From NCBI GenBank assembly GCA_003232385.1, contig QIJE01000033.1, forward strand, positions 1-59,505: a stretch of 59,505 bases of DNA. The letters run 5' to 3'. This document shows positions 3 to 14,658 of the stretch, one piece after another; the first letter of the stretch is position 1, and the number at the start of each line of letters is the position of its first letter. Under the pieces are notes generated by a model. The model did not search any database. It was not told where the DNA came from and saw nothing but the letters and a program-made list of their open reading frames with translations. The stretch comes from a bacterium (lineage in GTDB: Bacteria > SZUA-79 > Acidulodesulfobacterales > Acidulodesulfobacteraceae). Both the position numbers and the translations under genes were made by a program.

Positions 3-1745
3 AATGCAGACTTAATTAAAAATGTTAAAGTCGAGAGTAAATCCGAAGATACGAATAAAGACGAAGCGTTATCGGAATATTGGCATATTTCCATAAGGTT
101 TAAAGAAAATACCTTTATAGATGGGATGGATCCCTTCTCTTTTATTTATTATCTAAATAAAATCGGTACTATAAAAAATAGTTATCCGATATCAGATAAT
201 ATTCCGTCCTTCGACGAATTAAATCCCGAGTTGTGTTATCTTGGTTTCGAGATAAACCTTGAAACCGATTTGGGTCGTGAAGAAATAATAGATGTTTTTG
301 AGTTTGTAACGGACGATTGTGATATTTATATTTTGCCTCCAAAATTTAAGCTTGTCGAATATATGAATTTAATAAAAGAGTTGCCGGAAGATGAGGTTAG
401 GCTTGGAGAGATTTTAGTGGCTTCAGGCGCGCTGACCAAAACAGAACTCGAAAGGGCGTTACGCATTCAGATCGAAAAAGAAAAAGGGGATGATAAAAAT
501 CTTCTCGGCGAAAATAACGCCATGGATAAAAATGTTATAAACGGCGTAATTGAAAAACAGGAAAAAATTAAAAAGAAGAAGGGTAAAGAGTCTAAAACAT
601 TCCGAATAGATGCCGACAAACTCGACTTCGTCGTTAACATAGCAGGGGAACTTGTTACCGTAACGACAGGAATTGCCGAATTGTCAAAAACCATAAGCAA
701 TTCTATGCTTGAGGAATATACGTCTATGCTTATACGACTTGTTAACGATTTAAGGGACGGCTCTATAGAATTGAGGATGGTTCCCGTGGAAGAGGTGTTT
801 AATAGAATTAGGCGTATAGTAAGGGATATAGGCAAGGATCTTGGTAAAATTATAACCTTGGAGGTTAAAGGGGCAGACACCGAATTCGACAGGACTTATA
901 TGGAAAAGATCGTCGATCCGCTTATTCATCTTATCAGAAATGCAATAGATCACGGTATCGAGATGCCTGATGAAAGAATTGCCAAAGGGAAACCAGAAAA
1001 CGGCAAAATTACATTAAATGCTTATAATGATTCCGGAAGCATAGTTATAGAGGTTAGAGATGACGGAAACGGTTTGAATAAAGAAAAAATTCTAAAAAAA
1101 GCATTAGAAAAAGGCTTGATAGACGAAGACCGCGATAATTTAACGGATTCAAAAATATACAATCTTATATTCGAACCCGGTTTTTCTACCGCCGATGAAG
1201 TTACGAACATTTCCGGAAGAGGCGTAGGGATGGATATCGTAAAAAGAAATATTGCGGATTTAAGGGGTATTATTGAGATTAAAACTAAAGAATCGGAATA
1301 CACCGCTATTGAGTTAAGACTCCCCCTTACCCTTGCAATCGTGGATGGATTTATGGTCGGTTACGACGGAAACAAATATGTCATTCCCCTTGAATTAATT
1401 TTAGAATGCATAGATTATAATGAGTCCGACAAAACCAATGATGAAGTCGATTGCATAAATTTAAGGGGAAAATTGCTTCCGTATATTAAGTTTTCCGATA
1501 TTTTCGGCAGGCAAAAAGAAGAAATTAGTGAAAATAACATAATAGTAGTCAAATGTGCCGGTCAAGTCGTAGGGTTTGCCGTTGATAAAATATTCGGAGA
1601 GATACAGACCGTACTTAAACCGATGGGCAAAATCTATAAAGAGGCAAAATTTTTCAGTGGGGCCACTATACTCGGCAACGGCAGCATTGCTTTTGTACTT
1701 GATATACCGAAAATAATAAAGCATGCCGAATTGAAAAACATATAA
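3..1745 (+). CDS. cheA: Chemotaxis histidine kinase CheA (5' end outside window)
   Basis: The reading frame is open from base 3, so the start and the phosphotransfer (Hpt) domain lie outside the window; an internal ATG at 126 is not the start because WHISIRF-type sequence typical of CheA precedes it. In order one sees an inter-domain segment, a short LGEILVASGALTKTELE module (about 400-480) resembling the N-terminal domain of GspE-like ATPases, the P3 dimerisation helices (FRIDADKLDFVVNIAGELV), and the HATPase domain with N box HLIRNAIDHG (about 925-955), G1 box DDGNGL and G2 box GRGVGM. A CheW-like P5 domain ends the protein. It autophosphorylates in response to receptor signals and passes phosphate to CheY. 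No other chemotaxis gene is in the window; any partners would be upstream. Confidence 0.93.
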   Translation, partial: NADLIKNVKVESKSEDTNKDEALSEYWHISIRFKENTFIDGMDPFSFIYYLNKIGTIKNSYPISDNIPSFDELNPELCYLGFEINLETDLGREEIIDVFEFVTDDCDIYILPPKFKLVEYMNLIKELPEDEVRLGEILVASGALTKTELERALRIQIEKEKGDDKNLLGENNAMDKNVINGVIEKQEKIKKKKGKESKTFRIDADKLDFVVNIAGELVTVTTGIAELSKTISNSMLEEYTSMLIRLVNDLRDGSIELRMVPVEEVFNRIRRIVRDIGKDLGKIITLEVKGADTEFDRTYMEKIVDPLIHLIRNAIDHGIEMPDERIAKGKPENGKITLNAYNDSGSIVIEVRDDGNGLNKEKILKKALEKGLIDEDRDNLTDSKIYNLIFEPGFSTADEVTNISGRGVGMDIVKRNIADLRGIIEIKTKESEYTAIELRLPLTLAIVDGFMVGYDGNKYVIPLELILECIDYNESDKTNDEVDCINLRGKLLPYIKFSDIFGRQKEEISENNIIVVKCAGQVVGFAVDKIFGEIQTVLKPMGKIYKEAKFFSGATILGNGSIAFVLDIPKIIKHAELKNI

Positions 1746-1886: not shown

Positions 1887-1962
1887 TGGTCGGGATGACA
1901 GGATTTGAACCTGCGACCCCCTGCTCCCAAAGCAGGTGCGCTACCAACTGCGCCACATCCCG
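1887..1962 (-). tRNA. tRNA-Pro (UGG)
   Basis: Read on the minus strand, a 7-bp acceptor stem (CGGGATG with CATCCCG), a D arm with GTTGGTAGCGC, an anticodon arm CCTGC-TTTGGGA-GCAGG with anticodon TGG, and a T arm with GGTTCAAATCC are all present. Discriminator A and the 3' CCA are encoded (CCA at 1887-1889). Confidence 0.97.
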
Positions 1963-2041: not shown

Positions 2042-2935
2042 TTATGATTTTTCGCTTTTATTCATTAGCCAGTATACTATGCCGAGGACAAGGATAAGGA
2101 AGCCTAATATGGCCACTTCCTCTGATTTTTCGGGAATCAGAGAAAAAATCAAAATTTTCCTTAGCAGCGCCGCCATTGCAAGGCCTATAAAGGCGCTTAA
2201 AGCAAATTTATGTCCCCTTAGTTTTTTAACCTCTTCTTCCAACAATTCCCTTATTGCCCAAACTATCAGCATAACACCCAAGATATCCACTACTGTGGTT
2301 TCAAACGGGATACCACCGGAAGCAAACCTATAAACCTCGAATGCAAACAATAGAAATACCATAAGTGTCGCTACTATGAGCGATATTACCAACGTAAGGT
2401 CTAATGCATAGGCAAATTTAGAAGTAAATTTAATGATTTTGGTTTCTAATTTCGTGGATGCAACGTATAATTTTCCTTCATCTATGTAAGAACTGATAAT
2501 AATATCCAAATTCATGTCTATAATCTTATTTACCGATGCAATAAGTTCATCTCTTTTGTCTGAAATTTGAAAATTTTCAAGAATAATATCATGTAAATAA
2601 TTTCTTATATAATTCATTGTTGCACTGACATAATGAGATGGTAATTTTATGTCTGCATGTGCCTTGCCGATTCTTTTAAGTTTTCGAAAATACACATTAT
2701 TGTATGTTCCCGAAAAAAGACCCATGAACCATTGTTTAAGTTCTTCCTGGTGCTTATCTCTTATTTCTTCATCAGGGAGAAATTTGCTGAAATCTTCTAA
2801 ATTAGAAATAAAAGAATAAACATGGACGATAAAGTCATTTGTGCCGGATTTCATCAGGTTATTTAAATGCAATAAATTTGAAGCGTCATTATCCATAAAA
2901 GAATAAACCAATTTTATTTTTTCAAGAGTTTCCAT
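2042..2935 (-). CDS. Globin-coupled sensor fused to PsiE-like membrane domain
   Basis: This is a 297-residue protein. Residues 1 to about 165 match the globin-coupled-sensor (protoglobin) fold: the run FSGTYNN-VYFRKLKRIGKAHADIKLPSHYVSA carries the proximal haem histidine candidate His93. Residues about 179-291 contain four hydrophobic segments and match the phosphate-starvation-inducible PsiE family (FAFEVYRF near residue 200, IRELLEEE near 230, ALLRK near 260). The likely architecture is a cytoplasmic haem sensor of O2, NO or redox state on a small integral membrane module. PsiE has no established biochemical activity, so the output is unknown. It stands alone, read toward tRNA-Pro, with no obvious operon partner. 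Domain calls are from sequence pattern; haem binding is inferred. Confidence 0.8.
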   Translation of the reverse strand: METLEKIKLVYSFMDNDASNLLHLNNLMKSGTNDFIVHVYSFISNLEDFSKFLPDEEIRDKHQEELKQWFMGLFSGTYNNVYFRKLKRIGKAHADIKLPSHYVSATMNYIRNYLHDIILENFQISDKRDELIASVNKIIDMNLDIIISSYIDEGKLYVASTKLETKIIKFTSKFAYALDLTLVISLIVATLMVFLLFAFEVYRFASGGIPFETTVVDILGVMLIVWAIRELLEEEVKKLRGHKFALSAFIGLAMAALLRKILIFSLIPEKSEEVAILGFLILVLGIVYWLMNKSEKS

Positions 2936-3306: not shown

Positions 3307-3335
3307 TTGACAAAAGAGAAAGAAAATACTATAAA
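3307..3335 (+). promoter_or_regulatory. Sigma70-type promoter of the cobalamin-riboswitch operon
   Basis: A TTGACA -35 box at 3307-3312 and a TATAAA -10 box at 3330-3335 are separated by exactly 17 bases. Transcription would start near 3341-3343, at the 5' edge of the riboswitch aptamer. The fit to the consensus and the position make this the best promoter candidate in the window. Confidence 0.75.
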
Positions 3336-3340
3336 TTAGC

Positions 3341-3480
3341 TTATCAGGTTCAAAGGAAGCCCGGTGACAATCCGGCGCAGCCCCCGCTACTGTGATGCAG
3401 ACGAACCCCGATTATGCCACTGGAATTTCCGGGAAGGCAGGGAAGTAGGATGAAGCTAAGCCAGAAGACTTATCTGATGA
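3341..3480 (+). promoter_or_regulatory. Cobalamin (B12) riboswitch
   Basis: The conserved core is recognisable: AAGGAAGCCCGGTGACAATCC, then GGCGCAGCCCCCGCTACTGTG, a variable arm with GGAATTTCCGGGAAGGC, and the B12 box AAGCCAGAAGACTTAT. The closing P1 helix can form between ATCAG near 3343 and CTGAT at 3474-3478. It lies directly upstream of nrdD. Such riboswitches generally lower expression when adenosylcobalamin is bound, and over B12-independent enzymes they silence the back-up pathway when B12 is available. I could not identify a clear terminator or sequestering helix in the roughly 95 bases between aptamer and start codon, so the expression platform is unresolved. Confidence 0.92.
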
Positions 3481-3576
3481 TTTTTTTATGACGGGAGGTC
3501 AGTATTCATTTACCAATTCATAGTTAGTTTTCTATCTTGCCATAAAATATACTAATATTTTAAAGGATATCGCTTA

Positions 3577-5550
3577 ATGTTTAAGCAGATAAAGAAAAGA
3601 GATGGGCGTATTGTTCCGTTTAATATTTCAAAAATCACCGATGCCATAATTGCCGCCGGTGCCGCAACCGGTGAATTTGAAAGGGAAGAAGCTAAAAGGA
3701 TCGCATTACGTGTTGTTAGCCTTGCACTGTCCACTATAAATTCGGTGCCAACCGTAGAGGGGATACAAGATATTGTTGAGGAGGCACTGATCGGTTCGCC
3801 TTACAGGAAAACAGCAAAGTCATATATCATATACAGGGATCAGCACAAAAAGATGAGGGAGATATCAAATATTGCCAATGTCGATCTGGTTGATAGATAC
3901 CTGTGTAAATCCGATTGGAAGGTGAAGGAAAACAGTAATATGAGTTTTTCCTTGCAGGGTCTGAATAATTATATTTCTTCACAAATAAATAAGGTATATT
4001 GGTTAAACAAGATTTATTCAAAAAAGATAAAAACGGCGCATATTGAAGGTGATTTTCATATACATGACCTTAATCTGCTTGCCGTTTATTGTGTCGGATG
4101 GGATCTTCAAGACATTCTCCTTAAAGGATTCAGGGGCGCAATAGGTAAGGTTGCAAGCGACCCTGCAAGGCATTTCAGAACTGCTCTCGGACAGATAGTC
4201 AATTTCTTTTTTACTCTTCAAGGAGAAGCAGCCGGAGCGCAGGCATTTTCCAATTTTGACACACTTCTTTCGCCGTTTATAGCATTTGATAAACTATCTT
4301 ATAAAGAGGTCAAACAGGCGCTTCAAGAGTTTATATTTAATCTCAATGTGCCTACAAGAGTGGGTTTTCAGACGCCGTTTACTAATTTAACACTTGATTT
4401 GAAAGTTCCCGAATATCTAAAAAAACAGGCTGTAGTTATCGGCGGCAAACTTCAAAGTGCCGTCTACGGAGAATTTCAGAGAGAAATGGATATGCTAAAC
4501 ATGGCATTTATGGAGGTTATGTCGGGCGGTGATGCGGATGGACGTGTGTTTACATTTCCCATTCCTACCTATAATATTACCAAACAGTTCGATTGGGAAA
4601 ATAAAAACCTTGTTCCCCTATGGGAAGCTACGGCAAAATACGGCATTCCTTATTTCACAAACTTTATAAATTCCGATATGTCTCCGGATGATGCTCGAAG
4701 CATGTGCTGCCGGTTGCGCCTTGAGACAAAGGGACTCAAGAAAAAAGGAGGCGGCTTATTCGGTGCCAACCCGCTGACCGGTTCAATAGGTGTTGTGACT
4801 ATAAATATGCCAAGAATAGGGTACCTGTCGAAAGATGAGGATGAATTCTTTGCAAGGCTTGGCAATCTGATGAGTCTGGCGAAAGATAGTCTGGAGATAA
4901 AGAGAAAGGTTCTTGAAAGATACACCGAAGCCGGACTATACCCTTATTCAAAATTCTATCTTTCGGGCATCAAAGAGCATCTTGGCAGATACTGGGTAAA
5001 TCATTTTTCAACGATAGGTCTTATCGGTATGAATGAGGCATGTCTAAATTTTATCGGGACAGATATAGCAGCTAAGACAGGGGTAAAATTTGCGAACAAG
5101 GTTTTGACCTTCATGAGAGACAGGTTGCAAGAATTCCAAAAGGAAACGGAAAATATTTATAACCTCGAGGCAACTCCTGCCGAAGGAACAAGCTATCGTC
5201 TGGCATTAAAGGATAAGAATAAATATCCGGATATCATTACGGCAGGCAAGGATCGGCCCTATTATACGAACTCAAGCCAACTGCCGGTAAACTGTACCGA
5301 CGATATCTTTGAGGCGCTGGATTTGCAGGATGGCCTTCAGTCGAAATACACAGGCGGGACTGTGTTGCATCTGTTTTTAGGGGAAAAGGTATCAGATGGC
5401 AGGTCGGTTAGAAAATTGATAAAAACTATTTTTGAGAATTATAGATTACCTTACATAACTATAACTCCGACATTTTCCATATGTCCAATCCACGGCTATC
5501 TCACGGGGGAGCATTTTTATTGTCCGAAATGCAAGGAAGAGGCGCTTTAA
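3577..5550 (+). CDS. nrdD: Anaerobic (class III) ribonucleoside-triphosphate reductase, large part without glycyl-radical loop
   Basis: This 657-residue protein reduces ribonucleoside triphosphates to deoxyribonucleotides by glycyl-radical chemistry in the cytoplasm. Residues 1 to about 95 form an ATP-cone (RDGRIVPFNISKITDAI) for allosteric control; the 10-stranded barrel follows, with the catalytic cysteine region SMCCRLRLE near residue 376. The C-terminus ends in CPIHGYLTGEHFYCPKC, the zinc-binding cysteines. In most NrdD the glycyl-radical motif RxxGYL follows these cysteines in the same chain; here the chain stops and the motif is on the next small gene. An AAAGGA sequence precedes the ATG at a rather long distance. 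It is the first gene after the cobalamin riboswitch and is probably co-transcribed through metE. Confidence 0.95.
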   Translation: MFKQIKKRDGRIVPFNISKITDAIIAAGAATGEFEREEAKRIALRVVSLALSTINSVPTVEGIQDIVEEALIGSPYRKTAKSYIIYRDQHKKMREISNIANVDLVDRYLCKSDWKVKENSNMSFSLQGLNNYISSQINKVYWLNKIYSKKIKTAHIEGDFHIHDLNLLAVYCVGWDLQDILLKGFRGAIGKVASDPARHFRTALGQIVNFFFTLQGEAAGAQAFSNFDTLLSPFIAFDKLSYKEVKQALQEFIFNLNVPTRVGFQTPFTNLTLDLKVPEYLKKQAVVIGGKLQSAVYGEFQREMDMLNMAFMEVMSGGDADGRVFTFPIPTYNITKQFDWENKNLVPLWEATAKYGIPYFTNFINSDMSPDDARSMCCRLRLETKGLKKKGGGLFGANPLTGSIGVVTINMPRIGYLSKDEDEFFARLGNLMSLAKDSLEIKRKVLERYTEAGLYPYSKFYLSGIKEHLGRYWVNHFSTIGLIGMNEACLNFIGTDIAAKTGVKFANKVLTFMRDRLQEFQKETENIYNLEATPAEGTSYRLALKDKNKYPDIITAGKDRPYYTNSSQLPVNCTDDIFEALDLQDGLQSKYTGGTVLHLFLGEKVSDGRSVRKLIKTIFENYRLPYITITPTFSICPIHGYLTGEHFYCPKCKEEAL

Positions 5551-5640
5551 ATAAAATGAAATTCAAAAAGCAAGAGCTATAGCAATTAATCCGCAAAGCT
5601 GTTGCAGATAAGTAAAAACACTAAATATAGGAGGGATAAA

Positions 5641-5814
5641 ATGAAGATATTAAAAATTGATAGACCGGAACGGGAAAAACAGAACACAGAGGGAACGAAA
5701 TGCGAGGTTTACTCAAGAGCGGTCGGGTATTTGAGACCGGTTAGTCAGTGGAATCCCGGCAAAAAAGAGGAGTTTAGTGAAAGAAAATGCTTTAAACCCG
5801 ACGTCAGAAACTGA
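5641..5814 (+). CDS. Separate glycyl-radical polypeptide of anaerobic ribonucleotide reductase
   Basis: This is a 57-residue protein, start chosen at the ATG at 5641 because AGGAGGG sits a few bases upstream. Residues 21-47 (CEVYSRAVGYL, then RPVSQWNPGKKEEF) correspond to the C-terminal end of NrdD, in which the glycine of RxxGY (here Gly29) holds the stable radical. It starts 90 bases after the nrdD stop and has the same frame, but TAA at 5548-5550 and TGA at 5557-5559 separate the two, so simple readthrough would not join them. The inferred role is the radical-bearing subunit, docking into NrdD and activated by NrdG. By analogy it resembles the autonomous glycyl-radical cofactor GrcA of pyruvate formate-lyase. 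Small proteins of this type may be annotated elsewhere as short NrdD. Confidence 0.85.
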   Translation: MKILKIDRPEREKQNTEGTKCEVYSRAVGYLRPVSQWNPGKKEEFSERKCFKPDVRN

Positions 5815-5828
5815 AAAAGCGACAAAAC

Positions 5829-6512
5829 ATGTTCATCGGCGGACTTCAAAGATTCTCATTAATCGATTATCCGGGTGAAATCTCGGCAACGGTTTTTACA
5901 TCGGGATGCAATTTTAGGTGCCCGTACTGTCATAATCCGGAGCTAGTAAACATGAGCTTGCCTGCACTCAGCGAGGAAAAAATATTGAGCTTCTTGGAAA
6001 AACGCAAGGGCAAGTTTACTGCCGTTACGATTACCGGTGGCGAACCAATGCTTCATGAAGATATTTCAGGGTTTATTAAAAAAATAAAAAAGATGTGTTT
6101 TCTAGTGAAACTTGATACTAACGGCAGCAATCCTGATGTGTTGGAAAAATTAATTAAAGATGGACTGATCAACTATGTGGCAATGGATGTAAAAGCACCT
6201 CTTAGTCGATATAAGGAACTGGCCTTTAGTGATTATAGCGAACAGATTAAAAAGAGTATAAAGATCATCATATCATCGGCTATAGACTATGAGTTTAGAA
6301 CGACTATTGTAAAATCGCTTCTCTCAAAAGAGGATATTATAGAGATAGGAAAGATGATCACGGGAGCCACAAACTACTATTTGCAAAAATTTGTACCATC
6401 GAAAACTCTGGATCCGCTATTTATTAATGAAAGCACATATCGGGAATCCGAGCTTAAAAAACTGGTTCTAAAATTGGAGGAACATTATGTACGCAGATGC
6501 GACATCAGGTAA
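5829..6512 (+). CDS. nrdG: Anaerobic ribonucleotide reductase activating protein (radical SAM)
   Basis: This 227-residue radical SAM enzyme uses a [4Fe-4S] cluster bound by CNFRCPYC (residues about 27-34) and S-adenosylmethionine to abstract hydrogen from the NrdD glycine. The TGGEPML motif near residue 73 contacts SAM. The N-terminus MFIGGLQRFSLIDYPG is typical of the longer NrdG/pyruvate-formate-lyase-activase-like class. It begins 14 bases after the small glycyl-radical gene and its 3' end overlaps metE by 26 bases, so the four genes look translationally linked. No strong ribosome binding site is visible before the ATG. Confidence 0.92.
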   Translation: MFIGGLQRFSLIDYPGEISATVFTSGCNFRCPYCHNPELVNMSLPALSEEKILSFLEKRKGKFTAVTITGGEPMLHEDISGFIKKIKKMCFLVKLDTNGSNPDVLEKLIKDGLINYVAMDVKAPLSRYKELAFSDYSEQIKKSIKIIISSAIDYEFRTTIVKSLLSKEDIIEIGKMITGATNYYLQKFVPSKTLDPLFINESTYRESELKKLVLKLEEHYVRRCDIR

Positions 6513-8799
6513 GAGTGCCGATACGGAAGATAAAGCCGTCACCAATGTTTTGGGCTATCCGGGAATTGGAGATAAAAGAGAATTGAAATGGGCAATTGAA
6601 TCATTCTGGCAAGGTCAGTCTACAGAAGAAGAATTGCTGAGCGTTGCCGGTGATATTAAAAGGAAAAATTGGAAGATGCTTAAGGATAGCGGAATAGACT
6701 TAATTCCAAGCAATGATTTCACCCTATATGACCGGGTGCTCGATATGAGCTGTATGGTAGGCGCTATTCCTGAGCGATTTGGCGGAAAAACGGTTGATAT
6801 TGAGCTTTATTTTAGGATGATAGGCAGAAGCATAGCCGGAGAAGCCGACGTAAAACCGTGTGAGATGACAAAATGGTTTAACACCAACTATCACTATATT
6901 GTTCCGGAACTTGATGAAAATATAAATTTCAGGTTGTCACCGGCTAAAATATTCGATGAATTTACTGAGGCGCTTGATATCGGCATCCTTACGAAGCCGG
7001 TTTTAATAGGCCCGGTCACCTACCTCATGTTGAGCAAAAGCTATTCCGAGGGCTCGTTCGATGTCATGCAGCTTATAGACAAACTTATTCCTGTTTATGA
7101 AGAAATTATTGAACAATTGGGCAAGCTCGGTGCCAAGTGGATTCAAATTGACGAACCGGTTTTCTCGTTTGATCTTTCCGAAAAGATATTAAATAAATTG
7201 AAATATACATATGATATTCTCGGCAACTCGTCAAAAGTCAGACTCATGGTGGCAAACTATTTTGGAGATCTGGGGAGTAATCTTAGCACATTTGTAAATT
7301 TACCGGTTGATGCCGTTCATATCGATGCGGTAGCCTGTCCGAATGAGGTTTTTAAGGTGGCCGATGCCATAAAAGGAACAATGCGGTTGCTTTCGGTCGG
7401 GATTATTGATGGAAAGAATATATGGTCAAACGACCTTGGGACATCTATAAAGATGCTCTCGGATATTGCCGATGTCATAGGAAAGACCAACATGATGGTA
7501 GGAACATCTTCTTCGCTGGAGCATGTTCCTGTAAGTATCAAGTATGAAGAAAATATGGATGGGGCGATAAAAAACCAACTTTCATTTGCGAAGGAAAAGA
7601 TAGTCGAATTATCCGTACTATCCGAAGCAATCAATGGCAACTTAGGCAACAAAGTACTGCAAGATAAAATTATCGGATCGAAGATTGATTTTCAGGTTGA
7701 CCGTAAAGTGAGAGAGAGATGTGAAAAAATAACGCAAGACATGCTGTCCAGAAAGTCCGGATATCCGATCAGGGCGGCAAAGCATAGAGGAATGTTTTAT
7801 TTTCCGTTGCTTCCTGTTACAACAATAGGCTCTTTTCCGCAAACAAAGGAGATTAGAAAAGCGAGGTCCGATTTTAAAAAGGGCAGAATAGACAAAGATG
7901 CATATGAAAATTTTATAAAGGATGAGATTGCGCGCGTTATCGGCATTCAGCAGGAGATCGGGATAGATCTTTTTGTCCATGGTGAGCCTGAACGAAACGA
8001 CATGGTGGAGTATTTTGCCGACAAATTAAACGGCCTCCTCGTAACGCAAAATGGATGGGTCAGAAGCTATGGCACAAGGTGCGTTAAGCCGCCCATTATT
8101 TACGCCGACGTATCAAGAAAATCTCCTATGACAGTAAAATGGACTAAATATGCACAATCATTAAGTAAAAAACCTATCAAGGGAATGCTTACCGGACCGA
8201 ATACGATACTGCAATGGAGTTTTGTGCGCGATGATCAACACTTGAGTCAAACTGCTGCTCAAATCGCACTGGCAATTCGTGATGAGGTATTCGATCTTGA
8301 AGAAGCAGGAATAAAGATAATTCAGGTCGACGAACCGGCGTTGCGGGAGGGTCTGCCATTGAGAAAAAGCAGATGGAATGAGTATCTCAAATGGGCGATA
8401 GACAGTTTCAGGCTTGCCGTAAACGGGGTCGCGGACACGACTCAGATTCATACCCATATGTGTTACAGTGAATTTAACGATATCATCAAATCGATAGCAG
8501 AAATGGACGCTGATGTTATATCAATAGAGGCATCACGATCAAATATGGAATTACTAAAGGTATTCGGCAATTTTGAATATCCGAACCAGATAGGTCCCGG
8601 CATTTACGACATTCACTCACCAAGAATACCAACCGTAGAGGAGATAGCCGGTCTTATAACCGGAGCGCTTGCCGTTATACCCAAAGAACGTCTGTGGATC
8701 AACCCTGATTGCGGCCTTAAAACGCGGCGATGGTGTGAGGTTATACCGTCATTAAAAAATATGGTGGCTGCAGCTGAGCTTTGTAGAGATAAGTTATAA
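6487..8799 (+). CDS. metE: Cobalamin-independent methionine synthase
   Basis: This 770-residue enzyme transfers a methyl group from 5-methyl-tetrahydrofolate (polyglutamate) to homocysteine without B12. The N-terminal barrel opens with LGYPGIGDKRELKWAIE; the C-terminal catalytic barrel begins near TTIGSFPQTKEIRKAR. Zinc ligands are visible as HTHMC (near residue 655) and NPDCGLKTRRW (near residue 739). Length matches the family, with a short extra N-terminus of about 20 residues. GGAGG at 6476-6480 precedes the ATG, which lies inside the end of nrdG. Being last in an operon headed by a cobalamin riboswitch fits the usual control of MetE, which is expressed when B12 is scarce and MetH cannot work. 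No metH is in the window. Confidence 0.96.
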   Translation: MYADATSGKSADTEDKAVTNVLGYPGIGDKRELKWAIESFWQGQSTEEELLSVAGDIKRKNWKMLKDSGIDLIPSNDFTLYDRVLDMSCMVGAIPERFGGKTVDIELYFRMIGRSIAGEADVKPCEMTKWFNTNYHYIVPELDENINFRLSPAKIFDEFTEALDIGILTKPVLIGPVTYLMLSKSYSEGSFDVMQLIDKLIPVYEEIIEQLGKLGAKWIQIDEPVFSFDLSEKILNKLKYTYDILGNSSKVRLMVANYFGDLGSNLSTFVNLPVDAVHIDAVACPNEVFKVADAIKGTMRLLSVGIIDGKNIWSNDLGTSIKMLSDIADVIGKTNMMVGTSSSLEHVPVSIKYEENMDGAIKNQLSFAKEKIVELSVLSEAINGNLGNKVLQDKIIGSKIDFQVDRKVRERCEKITQDMLSRKSGYPIRAAKHRGMFYFPLLPVTTIGSFPQTKEIRKARSDFKKGRIDKDAYENFIKDEIARVIGIQQEIGIDLFVHGEPERNDMVEYFADKLNGLLVTQNGWVRSYGTRCVKPPIIYADVSRKSPMTVKWTKYAQSLSKKPIKGMLTGPNTILQWSFVRDDQHLSQTAAQIALAIRDEVFDLEEAGIKIIQVDEPALREGLPLRKSRWNEYLKWAIDSFRLAVNGVADTTQIHTHMCYSEFNDIIKSIAEMDADVISIEASRSNMELLKVFGNFEYPNQIGPGIYDIHSPRIPTVEEIAGLITGALAVIPKERLWINPDCGLKTRRWCEVIPSLKNMVAAAELCRDKL

Positions 8800-13470: not shown

Positions 13471-14658
13471 CTAACGATTGACGTTTTCTATCTGTATTAT
13501 TTCATCTAAGCCCTTCATAAAAGCGTTAAAACAATCAGGGTCAAATGCGTATCCCGGTCTCATTTCATTTTTCATAATTTCGATTGTTTTATCAAACGGA
13601 TATGCTTGTTTATATATCCTTTTGTTTATCAATGCGTCGAATACGTCTGCTATTTTACAGATACTACCGTTCAGAGGAATTTTTTTACCTTTTAATCCGT
13701 CGGGGTAGCCGCTGCCGTCAAAGCTTTCATGATGCGACAATGCGATTATAGCCCCTTCTCTAAGTATAGAAGATTCGGAATCTTTTAAAATTTCATAACC
13801 GATGATCGAATGGGATTTCATGATTTCAAATTCTTCTTTAGTCAGTTTTCCGGGTTTCAGCAGTATTTTGTCCGGTATGCCGACTTTCCCTATGTCATGC
13901 ATAGGGGCGGCATTTAGTATATTTTCCTGCTCGAGTTCATTCATTCCCAATTCTTTTGAGATAATTTTAGCAAAAGTGGACATTCTTAAAATATGATTGC
14001 CGGTATCCTCATCTCTATATTCCGCAAGGGTAATAAGCCTATTAAAAGAATCCCGCTCCATTTTATAAGTGTCGTCAATAGATTTTTGGTAATATGCTTC
14101 AATCACAAGGGCAATGTCTATTGAGATTATTTTTTGAACGGAATACATTATAGACAGCGATTCTTCCTCTGTTAAATCGTTTTCTTTACAGCAGGTCATC
14201 ACGGCCGACGCAATCAATGTATTATAATAGCCGTAAGAGCCGATGTAAATAACCGTGGAAATTTTATATATATAATGTACAAAACCCACAATAATTCGGT
14301 TTTTAAAATATTTTTCATCGTAGGTCAGGTTAAATAAAGATTTTATGTAATTTGTATGGGCTAATATGAGATTATCCAAGGTACCCGGTTTAGATATAAT
14401 TATTTTCTTTGTTTCATCTATCGTCATTAGATAGTTGCAAAAATTAGAGGCAACCGTAGGTGCAAATTTTTCCATACATTTTTTTATTTTTGCAAGATTG
14501 TTTTTATCGGTTTCGCTATATTTTGTTAAGGTATGCAGGAGATTTATATTATCTTCGGAAAAAAGCTTATATATGTTCCTGACGCCGGTTTCGGAGATCT
14601 TATTATTTTGTAATATATAATCTAAGCTATCTATTACATCCATTGTTTCGCCGTCCAA
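13471..14658 (-). CDS. Globin-coupled HD-GYP protein (c-di-GMP phosphodiesterase)
   Basis: This is a 395-residue protein. Residues about 20-195 resemble a globin-coupled sensor: the run RIIVGFVHYIYKIS followed by YIGSYGYY matches the proximal-His and YIGAY region, with His128 as haem ligand candidate. Residues about 205-385 are an HD-GYP domain with HILRMSTFAK, the metal-binding MHDIGKVGIP (His254-Asp255), HHESFDGSGYPDG at 309-321 and ADVFDAL. HD-GYP proteins hydrolyse cyclic di-GMP, and the globin would make this depend on oxygen or another haem ligand. It is transcribed alone. It is the second globin-coupled sensor in the window, sharing the sensor type but not the output of the protein at 2042. 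Confidence 0.85.
   Translation of the reverse strand: MDGETMDVIDSLDYILQNNKISETGVRNIYKLFSEDNINLLHTLTKYSETDKNNLAKIKKCMEKFAPTVASNFCNYLMTIDETKKIIISKPGTLDNLILAHTNYIKSLFNLTYDEKYFKNRIIVGFVHYIYKISTVIYIGSYGYYNTLIASAVMTCCKENDLTEEESLSIMYSVQKIISIDIALVIEAYYQKSIDDTYKMERDSFNRLITLAEYRDEDTGNHILRMSTFAKIISKELGMNELEQENILNAAPMHDIGKVGIPDKILLKPGKLTKEEFEIMKSHSIIGYEILKDSESSILREGAIIALSHHESFDGSGYPDGLKGKKIPLNGSICKIADVFDALINKRIYKQAYPFDKTIEIMKNEMRPGYAFDPDCFNAFMKGLDEIIQIENVNR

Follow-up and report, generated by a model that had tools for sequence, protein, structure and literature searches.

A sensor globin joined to a PsiE-type membrane domain in Acidulodesulfobacterales and in other bacterial lineages

Results

A fusion gene of two recognised domains

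The window, i.e., the whole stretch of 59,505 nucleotides analysed here, belongs to a genome of 1.54 Mb in 40 contigs whose close relatives are MAGs, one of them Candidatus Acididesulfobacter diazotrophicus. On its reverse strand, the ORF listing contains a gene at positions 2042..2935 that starts with ATG and encodes 297 amino acids followed by a stop codon. Pfam searches assigned the protein to two families, Protoglobin (PF11563, residues 3-155, 82.1 bits, E 5.7e-23, cut-off 25) and PsiE (PF06146, residues 182-295, 67.7 bits, E 1.4e-18, cut-off 23.9). Both scores lie far above the cut-offs, which bears out the proposal of an earlier note that a globin sensor is joined here to a PsiE-type membrane domain. 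Three parts can be delimited on the reverse strand: an N-terminal protoglobin or sensor-globin domain (residues 1-155, positions 2471..2935), a modelled linker or helix that joins the globin to the first membrane span (residues 156-181, positions 2393..2470), and a PsiE domain of four spans (residues 182-295, positions 2051..2392). The protein thus has the C-terminal output domain expected of globin-coupled sensors, with PsiE residues 182-295 on the same chain as the globin. A genome-wide search found one PsiE match in total.

The fusion gene is flanked by a CheA gene (positions 126-1745, forward strand) and by a gene for tRNA-Pro(UGG) (positions 1887..1962, reverse strand). The latter lies just downstream of the fusion in 15 of 17 related loci and is the only constant neighbour among close relatives; we regard it as a landmark and not as a functional partner. 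Divergent from the fusion gene, an anaerobic ribonucleotide reductase gene sits behind a cobalamin riboswitch.

The globin half and its haem site

AlphaFold2 predicted a confident globin for the N-terminal half, with pLDDT values mostly of 82-93 across residues 11-150. In the structure comparison (VIA list, residues 1-156 only), the best fold match in the PDB was 2w31 (Z 23.3, rmsd 1.6 A, 151 residues superposed), listed by Foldseek as the globin domain of the Geobacter sulfurreducens globin-coupled sensor (GsGCS). The same entry was the best PDB sequence match to the globin half (E 2.2e-25), with a gapless alignment over residues 2-154. The globin fold on which the earlier note depended was thereby recovered directly by modelling; the haem pocket that it placed around His93 can be inferred from the gapless alignment to 2w31.

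His93 (sequence context RIGKAHADIKL; codon at positions 2657..2659, reverse strand) aligns with residue 93 of 2w31, which is taken as the F8 ligand. A histidine occupies this proximal position in all 18 close sequences, the window protein included, and in 16 of the 18 sequences of a broad alignment, A3, which consists of the window protein, one further relative (L018) and 16 loci from outside the window's phylum. The histidine that the earlier note had put forward as proximal ligand is therefore well placed by both alignment and conservation, and the window globin likely binds haem through it.

On the distal side, the alignment gives His62 and Leu66 for the window protein and Leu62 and His66 for 2w31. 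His62 (codon at positions 2750..2752, reverse strand) corresponds to position E7, one helical turn before E11, and is found in 18/18 close and 10/18 broad sequences; position 66 is Leu, Ile or Phe in every one of the 18 close sequences. The GsGCS paper mentions HisF8 and HisE11 in its title, and a passage of PMC4476040 describes His66 at E11 as the second haem ligand of GsGCS. With Leu66, the window protein stands apart from the bis-histidyl HisE11 type of GsGCS. This is a difference of sub-type within an architecture common to both. Considering the exchanged residues at positions 62 and 66, haem coordination should differ from that of GsGCS.

Two members of the fusion family (L124, 5145-6035; L127, 5823-6713), both from one family, carry Gln or Leu at F8 together with an intact PsiE domain. 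Judged by these residues, both proteins are probably haem-free, and since two members lack the proximal His, haem would be dispensable for the globin-PsiE architecture. Two other loci (L128, 4755-5783; L129, 5223-6251) encode a longer fusion of 342 amino acids, with an insert in the globin between the equivalents of about residues 121 and 127.

The PsiE membrane half

Hydropathy peaks near residues 180-198, 214-232, 249-267 and 273-291 coincide with four helices that were predicted both in the full-protein model and in a PsiE-only model built with 16 of the 18 close coding sequences. The four-span, PsiE-like domain described in the earlier note thus agrees with four hydrophobic segments and four modelled helices, the packing of which is of low confidence (pLDDT about 60). 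The linker also had low pLDDT at residues 153-176, and a helix was predicted from residue 164. If the globin faces the cytoplasm, the same side would hold the C terminus and the loop that connects span 2 to span 3.

Seven residues (Gly220, Leu223, Trp226, Glu230, Leu231, Phe249 and Arg259) are invariant across the 18 divergent members of A3. Among them, Glu230 (codon at positions 2246..2248, reverse strand) is an acidic residue close to where span 2 reaches the cytoplasm, and Arg259 (codon at positions 2159..2161, reverse strand) is a basic residue within span 3. Both align with a Glu and an Arg of E. coli PsiE when the broad alignment is used (hhalign probability 38, E 3e-4); with a small alignment the match to E. 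coli PsiE is weak (probability 4.7). The window protein reached 10.3 bits against the NCBIfam PsiE equivalog NF002763, which represents the E. coli type and has a cut-off of 138, and it is thus not a member of that equivalog.

At a threshold of E 0.001, Foldseek matched the PsiE-only model to no PDB entry, and sequence searches of the PDB gave nothing better than E 1.4 for this half. In the open-access literature, we found neither experiments on PsiE function nor a biochemical role assigned to this widespread membrane family.

Occurrence of the fusion

The window's phylum was represented by 30 genomes, 23 of which contain a PsiE domain, and all 23 carry the globin-PsiE fusion. The fusion profile covers 21 of the 23 essentially over the full length; in the remaining two (G016 and G027) the halves lie on separate contigs, split at contig ends. 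The fusion is single-copy as a rule; in one genome (G007) there is also a shorter PsiE copy (160 amino acids, covering residues 138-297), which is either stand-alone or truncated. Outside the phylum, a profile search of 291 genomes identified the fusion in 16. A PsiE search of 386 genomes yielded 67 with PsiE, 44 of them outside the phylum, and the globin fusion is present in 20 of these 44 (16 + 4, verified by domain scans). The survey of fusion frequency that the earlier note had proposed accordingly gives 23/23 PsiE genomes within the phylum and 20/44 beyond it. Both Pfam families were matched in all 18 members of A3 and in 7/7 further proteins scanned. One PsiE place in genome G155 lies in a 331-aa frame with no globin similarity by BLAST.

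Searching with 2w31 itself in the class of genome G348, we obtained matches at E 1e-20 or better in 107 of 277 genomes, with a best identity of 69% and open frames mostly near 300-340 aa. Three proteins recovered by motif from ten returned class loci contain both domains and show the distal pattern of GsGCS, with Leu at E7 and His at E11. Ten further class loci align with the window protein over both halves (L168 only to residue 280), and six of these ten show 63-69% identity to 2w31.

The fusion recurs in many other genomes, which rules out chance or a chimera created by assembly or read-through. A mobile or viral origin was rejected on searches of phages, viral contigs and plasmids. No relative of the fusion was found in phages, and none was confirmed by tblastn in viral contigs in two scans, one with an A1 query and one with E. 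coli PsiE as query. In plasmids, the only matches were two partial ones of 24-29% to proteins annotated as EAL, and the PsiE half had none. One sequence found as a relative, L018, probably comes from outside the window's own group, since its flanking genes (BATS radical SAM and FMN reductase) are shared with a locus of another family (L114).

Joint inheritance of the two halves

Separate trees were built from A3 for the globin (residues 1-152) and the PsiE half (residues 165-293). The two trees have 9 of 15 splits in common and show no conflict at support of 95 or more. Globin and PsiE distances correlate at 0.716, a value that none of 10000 permutations reached. The agreement of the half-trees argues that globin and PsiE travel as a unit.

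At closer range, we compared ten pairs among 18 coding sequences, i.e., the window gene and 17 complete loci, with the partial loci L017, L019 and L020 left out. The PsiE half was more conserved than the globin in 9/10 pairs, the exception being L012-L015 (94% globin, 92% PsiE). Computable dN/dS ratios were 0.02-0.13 in either half; where dS was saturated, as in several comparisons, none was obtained.

Neighbouring genes

No operon partner conserved across lineages was found in the own group, the 16 outside loci, six further loci of two small phyla and ten class-level loci, with neighbours scanned in part. Lineage-specific neighbours do occur. In family f108, a MobA-like gene directly follows the fusion in seven loci (four by Pfam, seven by tblastn), and in four f232 loci HypD lies upstream, accompanied by HypF and HypC in one that was scanned. 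Elsewhere, housekeeping genes such as SecA, SpoU, DapA/DapB and purine genes are adjacent, with the gene order dapA-fusion-dapB in L128.

In both genomes of one genus (G114/G254), a HAMP-HisKA-HATPase-REC kinase gene precedes the fusion by about 30 bp and itself follows a REC-GGDEF gene. Besides its HAMP domain, the kinase has two membrane spans separated by about 50 residues, and no sensor domain was recognised in it. At L118 (2875-6426) and L119 (2997-6528), the REC-GGDEF, hybrid histidine kinase and globin-PsiE genes thus form an apparent operon. A third genome of this small phylum shows no such kinase on its 4957-base contig. The hybrid histidine kinase is the best hint of a partner, from one lineage.

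A hybrid-cluster (hydroxylamine reductase) protein was considered as a partner and rejected: it is encoded next to the fusion in one of 17 neighbourhoods, the neighbours having been scanned in part, and Hcp occurs in 14 of the 30 genomes without tracking the fusion. Co-occurrence of the fusion with chemotaxis receptors or cytochrome bd likewise gave no useful pattern.

Discussion

Relation to known globin-coupled sensors and PsiE proteins

AfGcHK, HemAT, DosC/DgcO, BpeGReg and other globin-coupled sensors share with the window protein the sensor globin fold (Z 17.7-21.9) and the order of an N-terminal globin and a C-terminal output. These sensors signal through kinase, chemotaxis or cyclase domains, whereas the window protein carries a four-span membrane domain. 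E. coli PsiE (b4030) and the PsiE-like orf14 of a transmissible stress-tolerance island resemble it in PF06146, which was matched for E. coli PsiE, but are stand-alone proteins without a globin.

By both sequence and fold, the globin closest to that of the window is GsGCS (2w31), and relatives with 65-69% identity to 2w31 carry globin-PsiE. GsGCS is also a protein that we take to have a membrane C-terminal half. Together, its relatives and this membrane half strongly suggest that GsGCS itself is a globin-PsiE fusion. If GsGCS-type sensors are such fusions, published structures already include an example of the kind. The departure from known globin-coupled sensors that the earlier note saw in this protein is not supported, as its closest solved globin comes from a protein whose nearest relatives carry the same fusion. 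Within the open-access literature, we found no relevant paper on a globin-coupled sensor or protoglobin with PsiE, and none that names the membrane half of GsGCS as PsiE. What is new thus concerns the naming and the breadth of occurrence; the kind of protein itself is known.

A proposed sensor with a membrane transducer

We consider it fairly probable that the fusion protein is a membrane-bound sensor of the GsGCS type, in which a cytoplasmic haem globin drives a PsiE membrane transducer via a helical linker; haem binding, the direction of signalling and the partner are what we infer here. The N-terminal globin would lie in the cytoplasm and bind haem through His93. A change of gas ligand or of haem redox state (O2, NO, CO or Fe2+/Fe3+) would shift the globin and its last helix, and the helical linker would hand this movement on to PsiE, with its four spans in the inner membrane. 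This domain would then act as the transducer, with a conserved region from span 2 to span 3 that includes Trp226, Glu230, Glu235 and Arg259, and would most likely change its contact with a membrane partner, e.g., a histidine kinase, instead of working as a catalytic enzyme. We favour this sensor-transducer reading because it accounts for three observations: the F8 His is conserved, PsiE is more strictly conserved than the globin, and the two half-trees are congruent. The idea of the earlier note that PsiE may act as an output gains support from a domain that is retained whole, evolves more slowly, keeps its invariant Trp, Glu and Arg and is co-inherited with the globin. The host group is described in PMC6776010 as facultatively anaerobic, with high-affinity oxidases and a habitat in low-oxygen mine water. 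Given this low-oxygen lifestyle, sensing of O2, NO or redox state would fit, although the window genome has no cytochrome bd match.

A broader claim, for which we would put the chances somewhat short of even, is that globin-PsiE forms one ancient, widely distributed class of haem sensors with a membrane output, which arose a single time and was passed on as a unit through many phyla, with PsiE as a genuine signal-transducing module that acts on membrane kinases or other membrane partners.

The lack of a conserved partner gene would also be compatible with PsiE as a mere anchor, the protein then being a membrane-tethered redox or detoxification globin that handles NO, O2 or electrons and not a sensor. 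A precedent may be seen in C. elegans GLB-26, a globin that is N-myristoylated and, according to PMC3520999, proposed to sense redox state, and the hybrid-cluster protein is the next gene in one own-group locus. An anchor, however, would be expected to evolve fast and to be exchangeable, whereas PsiE is the more conserved half in nearly all pairs, has three invariant polar or aromatic residues (Trp226, Glu230 and Arg259, 18/18 in A3) and a congruent tree. Moreover, PsiE stays intact in the members without the haem ligand, the hybrid-cluster neighbour appears only once among the 17 partly scanned neighbourhoods, and the spans in A3 lack a conserved pair of His residues that might serve in a haem relay. 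Taken together, we regard a mere anchor as unlikely.

Retention of the fusion in the two members that lost the F8 His also speaks for the reverse assignment, in which PsiE would sense membrane state, pH or phosphate, while the globin would serve in the cytosol as a responder or for dimerisation, with haem optional. Here, the globin domain of the stressosome protein RsbR offers a parallel, which a passage of PMC4476040 describes as acting though no longer haem-binding, and stand-alone PsiE occurs in many genomes as well as in the stress-tolerance island. The persistence of the F8 His in 16 of 18 broad and all close sequences runs against this assignment, which seems to us rather improbable. A role of the PsiE half as gated channel or transporter under globin control appears more doubtful still: the four-span domain has charged residues within or close to the membrane, and channel subunits figure among the weak, non-significant Foldseek rows, but no PDB match reached E 0.001, the models are of low confidence, and the domain is small and without a recognised pore motif.

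Should the sensor-transducer reading apply to an old and widespread class, the PsiE family would gain its first function, stand-alone PsiE proteins would be signalling partners too, and the crystallised GsGCS would become one case of a broad class. The fusion to a sensor globin also opens a direct way into PsiE function, as haem provides an optical handle and its ligand is controllable, and the invariant Trp226, Glu230 and Arg259 offer clean mutants of PsiE.

Other features of the window and of related loci

Further sequences around the fusion gene and its relatives deserve mention in their own right. At positions 3329-8799 on the forward strand of the window, the cobalamin riboswitch is followed by co-directional genes for a class III NrdD, a radical SAM activase-like protein and a cobalamin-independent methionine synthase, which look like B12-controlled genes of B12-independent enzymes. 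The window also encodes a second globin-coupled sensor (positions 13471-14658, reverse strand) of 395 aa with a protoglobin and an HD-GYP-type phosphodiesterase domain. It has the protoglobin in common with the fusion protein and differs in its phosphodiesterase-type output, which takes the place of the membrane domain. Sensors that combine protoglobin and HD-GYP are of a known kind, with an example from Vibrio fluvialis. Finally, two loci of related genomes (L003, 5801-7723; L009, 10165-12090) encode, near the fusion, proteins in which a chemoreceptor signalling part stands at the N terminus and a part similar to phosphate/phosphonate-binding proteins at the C terminus, an unusual order.
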